Notes under the pieces: generated by a model
Told to the model about the DNA's origin: nothing
What the model saw: only the letters and a program-made list of their open reading frames with translations
Database searches by the model: none
Part shown: positions 26,154 to 29,022 of the stretch, piece after piece
How the letters are laid out: every line of letters starts with the position of its first letter
How positions within the stretch are numbered: position 1 is the stretch's first letter
Assembly (NCBI GenBank): GCA_020444325.1
Contig: JAHLLD010000001.1
Location: 644,964-708,963 of the forward strand
Direction of reading: 5' to 3'
From: a bacterium
GTDB taxonomy: Bacteria; Bacteroidota; Ignavibacteria; SZUA-365
DNA: 64,000 bases
Program-made: the position numbers and the translations under genes

Positions 26154-27176
26154 TCAGATTTTGTCCATGCGGGCGGCCAGAAAAAGATCCGCCAGAACGA
26201 ATGCAGTCATAGCTTCCACAACCGGAATAATGCGAGGGAGGATGCATGGGTCGTGCCTTCCCTCGCGCGCAGCGCGTCCGAGAGTGCTCGTGGGTTTGAC
26301 CGCGCAACGCATGATGATGCGCTCGCCGTTGCTGATACCTCCCTGGATACCATAGGATCTTCGGGCCGCACCGGGTGCTGCACCTTCAATCGCTTCATGA
26401 AATGCATGTCCCGGTAACAAGGCTTCGGTAAAGGCATCTCCGAGTCCGACCCCGGTTACCGCACCGATGCTCATGATTGCTGACGCCAGTTCGGACTTGA
26501 GCTTGCGAAACACCGGCTCCCCGAGTCCTGCAGGAACATTGTCAAGCCAAACTTCGACAATGCCTCCAATGCTGTCGCCCTGCTCTTTGAGGCGGAGAAG
26601 CTCCTCCATGATGGCGATATCCGCTTCCGGATCGGGACAGCGGGTGGGAAAGGCATCGACCTGCGCGCGCGTGATGGTGGACGACATGTTGACAGCCGGG
26701 ATATGTCCAATCTGTCGCGCAAACGCGACGATGCGTGTGTTCGCGGGTAGAATCCGCTCCGCGATGGCACCAGCGATAACTCTCGAAATAGTCTCCCTTC
26801 CCGATGAGCGTCCCCCACCCCGGTGATCCCGGTGCCCGTATTTCTGCTCCCACACCTTGTCGGCATGTCCCACACGATACTCGCCCGGCGAATAATCGCC
26901 GCTGCGCGCGTCCTGGTTACGGACCAGCACCGCAATGGGGGTACCGAGTGTTTTTCCATCAAACACGCCACTGAGAAGCTCTGCGCTGTCAGTTTCCGCG
27001 CGCGCGCTTGTTATGGGTGATTGTCCGGGACGTCGCCTGCGAAGTGCAGCGTTGATATGCTCGGCCTCCAGTGCTATGCCAGAAGGACACCCGTCGATGA
27101 CGGCACCGAGTGCGCTGCCGTGGCTCTCGCCAAAACCGGATAAAACAAGCTGATTTCCAAAACTATTACCACGCAT
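26154..27176 (-). CDS. aroC: Chorismate synthase
   Basis: 340-aa FMN-dependent enzyme converting EPSP to chorismate, the last common step of aromatic biosynthesis. Family signatures are present: GESHGSALGAVIDGCPSGI near the N-terminus, RRRPGQSPITSARAETD, the GGGRSSGRETISRV block and KPTSTLG near the C-terminus. The length is standard. It lies 25 nt after the AroK-AroD-AroE fusion on the same strand and probably in the same transcript, giving four shikimate activities from two genes. Confidence 0.97.
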   Translation of the reverse strand: MRGNSFGNQLVLSGFGESHGSALGAVIDGCPSGIALEAEHINAALRRRRPGQSPITSARAETDSAELLSGVFDGKTLGTPIAVLVRNQDARSGDYSPGEYRVGHADKVWEQKYGHRDHRGGGRSSGRETISRVIAGAIAERILPANTRIVAFARQIGHIPAVNMSSTITRAQVDAFPTRCPDPEADIAIMEELLRLKEQGDSIGGIVEVWLDNVPAGLGEPVFRKLKSELASAIMSIGAVTGVGLGDAFTEALLPGHAFHEAIEGAAPGAARRSYGIQGGISNGERIIMRCAVKPTSTLGRAAREGRHDPCILPRIIPVVEAMTAFVLADLFLAARMDKI

Positions 27177-27201: not shown

Positions 27202-29022
27202 TCACAGCAGCGGATGCGATGCGATATCGTTCAACCCCCAGAGTTTCCGCTGCTCAAGTGCCTGTCGCTTGTAAAATGTCATTCCGGAGAAAAGCTGGTC
27301 AGCTGATTCAGGCGCGCGCGCGATGTCGCGGTATCTCAAATCCAGCCACGCGCGTGCGTGCGGAGCAGCTTTCTGCACGGCCTGTCCGCCCGATGCGTCC
27401 ACCACGAGAGTGTATTCTTTCTCCGCGGCGTCTTTCCAGCCATCCCGTGCAGGATAAATGTCCACCTGTGACCACCCACGCGCGCGCAATGCGCGCTGCA
27501 GGGCGGGGACGACGCCACCGCTGCCGAAAATCGCTGTCCTTCCAGGTGCAATGTCGCTATTCTCGATTTCTTTGAGCGCCGCCAGCATCCCCGATTCATC
27601 CGTGTCGAAAAGCAGAAAGCTGCCCTTGATATATGCCAGGGTATTGCCGGCATCGAGATCGGTCTCACAGCCGACGAAATTCGATTCCACGATGGCGCGC
27701 TTGAGCGGGGATGTTACCGACAGTCCCCGGAAGCCGAACTGTGGCAGCAGATGCAGGCAGTTGTCGATTTCCGTCTCGTGGAGGAGGATTTTCAAGTAGG
27801 CTGCTTCTCCTTCATCTGCAGCCAGACTCAGTGCGCGATGGAAGATATCACCGTAGCTGTTCTCCACGGGATCGCCCAGCAGTCCGTAAAACACGCGCGC
27901 GGTGGGCAGCTGCATATGTGGAAGGAAATAGTCGATGCCCGGCGGCAGCTGCGAATACTCTTCGCAGCCCGTGCTGATGTAGTTACTGCGGTTTCCGTTC
28001 ACCAGCCGCATTGCGCGCACCCAGTTCCACTGTTTACCCTGTGGGAGAAAGGTGATGCGCTGCTCTCCTGCCGCTTCGAGCACCTTGTAGAGCTGATAGG
28101 CGTAACGCAGTTCCACCCAGGATTTCACCCGTGGCGCGTATTTCAGGACGATATGCTTTTCCCATTCCGGCCAGCGGCGGGCAATCCACGCCGGCAGAGA
28201 GAGCAGATGGTCGAAATACTCTTTGTACACGTCTGAGGGATGCGTGCTGAGGATCAGGGGACGCGGCTCGAGTCCATCGAGGTCGAGGTATTGCAGAAAT
28301 GCCGTGTCACAGTCAAAGGCTGCCGCATCACGCGCGCGCGCAAAGAACCCTTCCTCCTCCGTACGCAGCGAGGCAAGGTAGGGTACATCGAGACCGGGGA
28401 TGGAGGAAAAGCGATCAGAGCGTATTTCCACACCCGCGAGATCGAAAAGACGGACATCGGCCTTTGCGCGGGAGAGGTCGTCTTCATCGCGAGGGAGTAT
28501 CCAGCTCATGCGGGCGGCGGGGGTCCCTCCAGCATGTTCCAGCCATGAGACGAGAAGCACAAGGCGTTCGGTGGCCTCTTCCTCACTGCAGCCGCGTTCG
28601 AGATGCAGGCGTACGTGGGCGGACCGCCGGTACAGCGGTTCTCGCATCTCACGCATCCATGCGATCTCTTCGTCTGGGGTGAGATCAGGACGCAGTCTGT
28701 CGCGTTCCTGCAATGCGCTCTCATCCCAGCCGTCCCTGGAAACCCAGATCACGTAGACGCCGTCAGGTATCTGCTGCAGTCCACCCCCGGCGGAAATAAT
28801 CAGCGCTTCATCGCCGGCAAGCAGCTCGCTGAGCGTTCGGATTTCCATCTGTCTGAACGCGACCTCATCAGCCGCCACGAGTTCAGCCGCCGTTGCACCT
28901 TCCGTCTCAGCGATAGAGGTGTCGAGGTCGACATGCCGAATGCCGCTCCGTGCAGCCAGTGCGCCGGCGAGAGTACTTTTTCCGGTTGCCCGGTGGCCGA
29001 TAAGCAGAATGGAGTGTTGCAT
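27202..29022 (-). CDS. Three-domain shikimate pathway fusion: shikimate kinase - type I 3-dehydroquinase - shikimate dehydrogenase
   Basis: 606 aa. Domain 1 (about 1-165) is shikimate kinase: Walker A GHRATGKST (9-17), DLD (32-34), FRQME, ISAGGG (76-81) and the lid RLRPDL. Domain 2 (about 185-370) matches type I dehydroquinase: E-x-R-x-D strand (EIRSDRF, 199-205), candidate catalytic His261 in LSTHPSD and candidate Schiff-base Lys294 in VLKYAP, then a GNRSNYIS element like the family's late GS-x-x-T-Y strand. Domain 3 (about 376-606) is shikimate dehydrogenase: FYGLLGDPVENS, catalytic Lys441 in VTSPLK, Asp475 in DTDESG (NTD in most homologues) and nucleotide-binding GSGGVVPAL (500-508). The AroD part is the most divergent, so its activity is less certain. 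AroB, AroA and DAHP synthase are not in the window. Confidence 0.85.
   Translation of the reverse strand: MQHSILLIGHRATGKSTLAGALAARSGIRHVDLDTSIAETEGATAAELVAADEVAFRQMEIRTLSELLAGDEALIISAGGGLQQIPDGVYVIWVSRDGWDESALQERDRLRPDLTPDEEIAWMREMREPLYRRSAHVRLHLERGCSEEEATERLVLLVSWLEHAGGTPAARMSWILPRDEDDLSRAKADVRLFDLAGVEIRSDRFSSIPGLDVPYLASLRTEEEGFFARARDAAAFDCDTAFLQYLDLDGLEPRPLILSTHPSDVYKEYFDHLLSLPAWIARRWPEWEKHIVLKYAPRVKSWVELRYAYQLYKVLEAAGEQRITFLPQGKQWNWVRAMRLVNGNRSNYISTGCEEYSQLPPGIDYFLPHMQLPTARVFYGLLGDPVENSYGDIFHRALSLAADEGEAAYLKILLHETEIDNCLHLLPQFGFRGLSVTSPLKRAIVESNFVGCETDLDAGNTLAYIKGSFLLFDTDESGMLAALKEIENSDIAPGRTAIFGSGGVVPALQRALRARGWSQVDIYPARDGWKDAAEKEYTLVVDASGGQAVQKAAPHARAWLDLRYRDIARAPESADQLFSGMTFYKRQALEQRKLWGLNDIASHPLL

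Follow-up and report, generated by a model that had tools for sequence, protein, structure and literature searches.

A putative bacterial 'split AROM': two fused shikimate-pathway genes carry the five AROM domain families in an uncultured order of Bacteroidota

The AROM protein joins five shikimate-pathway domains in the order DHQS-EPSPS-SK-DHQD-SD (PMC6851490) and has been described from fungi and protists, the corresponding bacterial steps being attributed to individual enzymes (PMC6851490, PMC9074039). Multi-domain EPSPS proteins are rare in bacteria and have mostly two domains (PMC6851490, PMC9074039, PMC9394408). In the openly accessible literature searched, we found no report of a bacterial fusion of shikimate kinase (SK), type I dehydroquinase (DHQD) and shikimate dehydrogenase (SDH), nor of a split AROM. 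The domains all belong to known families, and fusions of shikimate enzymes are already known as a kind.

The window analyzed here is a stretch of 64,000 nucleotides from a bacterium of an uncultured order of Bacteroidota. A preliminary description had claimed that SK, type I DHQD and SDH are joined in one 606-aa chain and succeed one another as they do in the C-terminal half of AROM, with aroC as the next gene, but had named no strand. An intact open reading frame of this composition was indeed found on the minus strand, starting with ATG and free of internal stops, and the co-directional gene that follows downstream after a spacer of 25 bp was confirmed as aroC by its Pfam match. The features are as follows (here and below, G, L and f numbers are our handles for genomes, loci and families).

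27202..29022, minus strand: SK-DHQD-SDH fusion gene, 606 aa plus stop, with the type I DHQD in the middle
28525..29022, minus strand: shikimate kinase domain, residues ~1-166, matching Pfam SKI (PF01202); motifs are Walker A GHRATGKST, Asp32/Asp34, GGG at 79-81 and lid Arg111
27898..28524, minus strand: type I dehydroquinase domain, residues ~167-375 (209 residues), with His261 and Schiff-base Lys294; assigned by profile alignment, hhalign, structure and 8 of 8 listed catalytic or core residues
27205..27897, minus strand: shikimate dehydrogenase domain, residues ~376-606, nucleotide-binding half shortened; residues are Lys441, Asn460, Asp475, GSGG at 500-503 and Gln587
26154..27176, minus strand: aroC, chorismate synthase, Pfam PF01264 (Chorismate_synt), E=1.1e-106

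The outer domains were recognized directly from the 606-aa protein, where Pfam SKI scored 54.4 bits (cut-off 22.1) and Shikimate_dh_N 22.8 bits, slightly below its cut-off of 27; NCBIfam models for SK and SDH also matched, all far under their equivalog cut-offs. DHquinase_I (PF01487) gave no match at E<=1 on the 606-aa protein or at E<=10 in its own genome, and we considered whether the middle domain might not be a dehydroquinase at all. This idea was overturned by the active-site residues treated below and by profile alignment, hhalign and fold. Ordinary DHQD-SDH proteins can be aligned with the profile of the fusion family without interruption through both of their domains, and the middle domain alone aligns with canonical type I dehydroquinases with a probability of 93% and E=2.6e-7 in an hhalign profile-profile comparison. 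The AlphaFold2 model of the 606-aa protein (pLDDT 89.7, pTM 0.90) finds its best Foldseek matches in AROM of Candida and Chaetomium, in each case the SK-DHQD-SDH portion, and after these in the Arabidopsis DHQD-SDH protein. Although Pfam is silent, the middle segment is thus a type I dehydroquinase homologue, as first proposed, and is predicted from sequence and model to be catalytic.

The likeness to AROM stood for the C-terminal half of that protein, but the preliminary description was incomplete, since the genome (G000; 4.65 Mb, 25 contigs, 100% complete) has the N-terminal half as a fusion too, on a contig other than that of SK-DHQD-SDH.

G000 contig 7, 48861-51122 (L109:2847-5150), minus strand: DHQS-EPSPS fusion gene, 768 aa, single open frame

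The chain of 768 aa comprises DHQ_synthase, DHQS_C and EPSP_synthase domains, and its AlphaFold2 model (pLDDT 88.3, pTM 0.88) has AROM as its best Foldseek matches. With both fusions in one genome, all five AROM domains are present in AROM order with one cut. The EPSPS residues Lys22, Arg27, Arg124, Asp313, Glu341, Arg344, His385, Arg386 and Lys411 do not vary among the 14 fusions compared, and the same holds for the DHQS motifs that were checked. A stronger separate match to PF00275 lies on contig 3 of the same genome and is presumably MurA, a cell-wall enzyme in the EPSPS family. The gene after DHQS-EPSPS, with an overlap of 4 bp, codes for a family 2 glycosyltransferase. A wide occurrence of DHQS-EPSPS in Bacteroidota was also considered and rejected, as the candidates in G399, G448, G620 and G507 turned out to be adjacent genes with stops between them. 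In the rest of the phylum aroB and aroA can adjoin in one frame and yet be separate genes, an arrangement that is a plausible starting point for the fusion.

The survey for the fusion in other genomes, suggested in the preliminary description, located SK-DHQD-SDH in two classes. In the class of the window it occurs in 13 of 391 genomes sampled (the window's own and 12 others), all belonging to one uncultured order; the frame is open in all 12 further genomes and of full length in 11 of them. The carriers fall into family f1 (12 genomes) and family f2 (one genome, where the kinase part is cut by a contig end), and family f3 of the order showed no SK-DHQD-SDH fusion in this 391-genome sample. 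A second class (that of G392), which we reached through MAGs deposited as Myxococcales and which is very probably Bradymonadia (Myxococcota), a class with cultured members, carries the fusion in 20 of 57 genomes; outside this class no SK-DHQD-SDH fusion was found in a 379-genome sample of the second phylum. DHQS-EPSPS, whole or cut by a contig end, is present in 18 of the 20 second-class genomes with the C-terminal fusion and in 0 of the 37 others.

At most loci in both phyla aroC directly follows SK-DHQD-SDH. The order SK-DHQD-SDH, aroC, DHQS-EPSPS is seen in G005, G007 and G012, and the tandem order of AROM itself, DHQS-EPSPS, SK-DHQD-SDH, aroC, in G703, G699, G694 and G706. In G694 (L189:4445-8673) and G699 (L188:4205-8298) the DHQS-EPSPS stop codon overlaps the SK-DHQD-SDH start codon as ATGA, which is usually taken to mean translational coupling, and the gene pair is a single stop codon away from a pentafunctional gene. 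Five domains in one polypeptide were encountered nowhere, the two halves being separate ORFs in all genomes examined. A 943-aa open frame in G695 was inspected as a possible five-domain bacterial AROM and rejected, because upstream of it only unrelated genes are annotated and no EPSPS or DHQS was found; likewise a match in Clostridia (L061) proved to be an ordinary stand-alone shikimate kinase.

Some neighbouring or related arrangements deserve mention in their own right. Bradymonadia-like genomes have a second, divergent DHQS-family gene beside the fusion (e.g. G692:C1:4576176-4577081), which may be a sugar-phosphate cyclase with a different function. Near the shikimate genes of G005 there is an 897-aa ORF (L076:9606-12299) combining a TPP-enzyme (MenD-like) with an alpha/beta hydrolase (MenH-like). 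Genome G012 (L057) was deposited as Ectothiorhodospiraceae (NAT122) and its kinship is with the order of the window, so that the name of the record looks wrong. Family f13 of the same class has a compact operon (L071-L074) of DAHP synthase, aroB, DHQD-SDH, aroA and aroK, in which the SK is an ordinary single-domain enzyme and the DHQD-SDH fusion is canonical. Finally, SK-DHQS (aroK-aroB) fusions were seen at L202:4237-5931, L203:2901-4754 and L079:3726-5333, in genomes without the split AROM.

Maximum-likelihood trees were made for each domain with few references from outside Bacteroidota and Myxococcota. It is clear that the bacterial fusions form one clade for every domain (DHQS 100/100, EPSPS 100/100, SK 98/100, DHQD 100/100 and SDH 100/99). 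In the concatenated tree the clades of the Bacteroidota order and of the Bradymonadia-like genomes are reciprocal (85/87 and 98/95), and in the DHQS tree alone the Bradymonadia-like fusions are nested inside those of the Bacteroidota order with moderate support. The simplest reading of these trees would be a single origin of the fusion pair and one old transfer between the phyla, in one direction or the other. Bradymonabacteria prey on Bacteroidetes (PMC7460792), and such predation offers a route for a transfer, though it is not evidence of one.

The trees also bear on whether the bacterial pair and eukaryotic AROM go back to a common ancestor, either because a bacterium with tandem genes gave rise to AROM or because AROM passed to bacteria and was split. 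We consider such a shared descent unlikely. It would account for the identical domain order in both halves and for the tandem, overlapping genes of G694 and G699, and it agrees with the SK, DHQD and SDH trees, in which AROM is the weakly supported neighbour of the fusion branch (61/64, 52/47 and 40/36). When AROM was held with the fusions in AU tests, the grouping was not rejected for all five domains together (p=0.34) or for DHQS alone (p=0.22). The EPSPS data, however, reject it (p=0.018), as do those for DHQS+EPSPS (p=0.037), and the EPSPS of AROM clusters with that of E. coli (99/97) and its DHQS with ordinary bacterial genes (97/88). Against common ancestry is also the fit of AROM EPSPS to the fusion profile, which at 137.7 bits is worse than that of the Vibrio and E. 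coli enzymes (~190-196 bits). A more specific proposal starts from DHQS-EPSPS and SK-DHQD-SDH genes in tandem, as in Bradymonadia-like genomes, which would have become AROM once the single stop that separates them was lost; this appears doubtful to us. The split AROM is thus probably convergent with eukaryotic AROM as far as these trees can tell, a conclusion that we grade as likely and no higher because the reference sequences are few. The preliminary description had left the choice between AROM origins and convergence open, and it is the EPSPS and DHQS+EPSPS tests that favour convergence; the C-terminal domains settle neither.

Concerning function, we find it very likely that the enzyme for steps 3-5 and DHQS-EPSPS together make up a working bacterial split AROM, followed in the pathway by the aroC product, the activities being those predicted from the domains and their residues. 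In the DHQD domain the Schiff-base, acid/base and substrate residues Lys294, His261, Glu199, Arg201, Arg220 and Arg336 are kept in 22 of 22 fusions, and the equivalents of E. coli AroD Glu46, Arg48, Asp50, Arg82, Asp114, His143, Lys170 and Arg213 are identical in the same 22 proteins; His261 and Lys294, singled out as key residues from the start, correspond to AroD His143 and Lys170. In the SK domain Lys15 (in the Walker A motif, also recognized early), Asp32, Asp34 and Gly79 are identical in 21/21 fusions, and the lid Arg111 is kept in 17/21. In the SDH domain Lys441, Asn460, Asp475, Gln587, G500 and G502 are present in 22/22 fusions and G503 in 21/22, which in AroE numbering are Lys65, Asn86, Asp102, Gln244, Gly126, Gly128 and (21/22) Gly129, and the two residues named in the preliminary description, Lys441 and Asp475, are thereby AroE Lys65 and Asp102. 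The SDH domain has no NRT/NRS motif for NADP specificity and shows x-A/G-R instead, with Arg526 invariant in the 22 fusions; in the window (27205-27897) the cofactor preference may differ with this replacement.

A second possibility is that SK and SDH work and that the middle domain is a relic without dehydroquinase activity, step 3 being left to another enzyme. The missing Pfam match fits such a loss, as does the absence of equivalents of the AroD lid-loop residues Ser232 and Gln236 (the Glu86 equivalent is also missing in most fusion proteins), and a comparable loss of dehydroquinase activity is documented in C. albicans Aro1 (PMC9074039). At the columns of His143, Lys170 and Arg213, C. albicans AROM has His->Gln, Lys->Arg and Arg->Gln, and these substitutions at a known-dead domain serve as a useful check on our residue alignment. 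The fusions, unlike C. albicans at these three positions, have identical equivalents of His143, Lys170, Arg213, Glu46, Arg48 and Arg82 in every protein. Furthermore, profile searches of the complete genome of the window found no other type I or type II dehydroquinase (DHquinase_I, DHquinase_II), so that a middle domain without activity is very improbable. Besides the fusion, they gave no Shikimate_dh_N match and no other significant SKI match. With SK, DHQD and SDH found only in the fusion, we also rejected the notion of a decayed copy beside working genes; the genome has no separate aroK, aroD or aroE, which the preliminary description had named as a point to be checked. An artefact of assembly or gene calling, or the mistaking of a normal operon for a fused gene, is practically inconceivable, for although the in-frame but stop-separated aroB/aroA genes of other Bacteroidota can mimic a fusion in a search table, the frames are continuous without stops in more than 30 independent genomes, among them the single-contig G008, G691, G692 and G703.

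In the functional split AROM that we favour, DHQS-EPSPS would carry out step 2, which yields dehydroquinate. The DHQD domain would convert 3-dehydroquinate to 3-dehydroshikimate (step 3), the SDH domain would reduce the latter to shikimate (step 4), and the SK domain would form shikimate-3-phosphate (step 5). DHQS-EPSPS would then consume shikimate-3-phosphate in step 6, and the product would pass to chorismate synthase (step 7), encoded beside the trifunctional gene. A plausible benefit of the fusion would be a fixed one-to-one dosage of the enzymes. The preliminary description had suggested channelling of the intermediates, which nothing in our data supports. For C. thermophilum AROM a throughput not above that of the isolated domains was found (Veraszto 2020, as reported in PMC9074039), and on the strength of that second-hand account channelling should not be assumed here.

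An AROM-like system of two genes, sometimes one stop apart, makes the selective reasons for AROM and the path to it testable, and since the split AROM very probably occurs in some predatory bacteria that are in culture as well, the rise of multi-enzyme chains is open to study in bacteria. If the arrangement is convergent, the recurrence of one order suggests that there are real limits on which enzymes function as neighbours; if it is homologous, the split AROM bears on the origin of AROM. There is also an annotation gap: since Pfam misses the DHQD and the SDH is a borderline match, a pathway reconstruction would judge the route to be interrupted. According to one paper, Bradymonabacteria are without complete tryptophan, tyrosine and phenylalanine pathways (PMC7460792), and this published gap may partly reflect divergent, fused shikimate enzymes that were missed. 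The chorismate part of the claim needs re-examination, given a Bradymonadia-like genome with both fusions and relatives with aroC beside the fusion.

Compared with AROM/Aro1 of fungi and protists (PDB 6hqv, 7u5s, 7tbv), which is the top Foldseek match for both bacterial chains, the split AROM agrees with it in the five domain families and in their order. It differs in being two chains, in its shortened SDH with an altered NADP motif, and in the placement of its EPSPS and DHQS apart from those of AROM in the domain trees; in overall domain packing, the models likewise fail to superpose on AROM (TM ~0.24-0.46). The DHQD-SDH enzymes (plants, 2gpt/6bmb; NF006802; L071-L074) have a type I DHQD followed by SDH, as here, and the Arabidopsis protein superposes on the 606-aa model with a TM-score of 0.68, but the fusion has an extra N-terminal SK and scores only 54 bits against NF006802, where the cut-off is 598 bits. 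The SK-DHQS (aroK-aroB) fusions, such as those of L079 and L202, are likewise bacterial and begin with the kinase, but join it to a different partner, DHQS.
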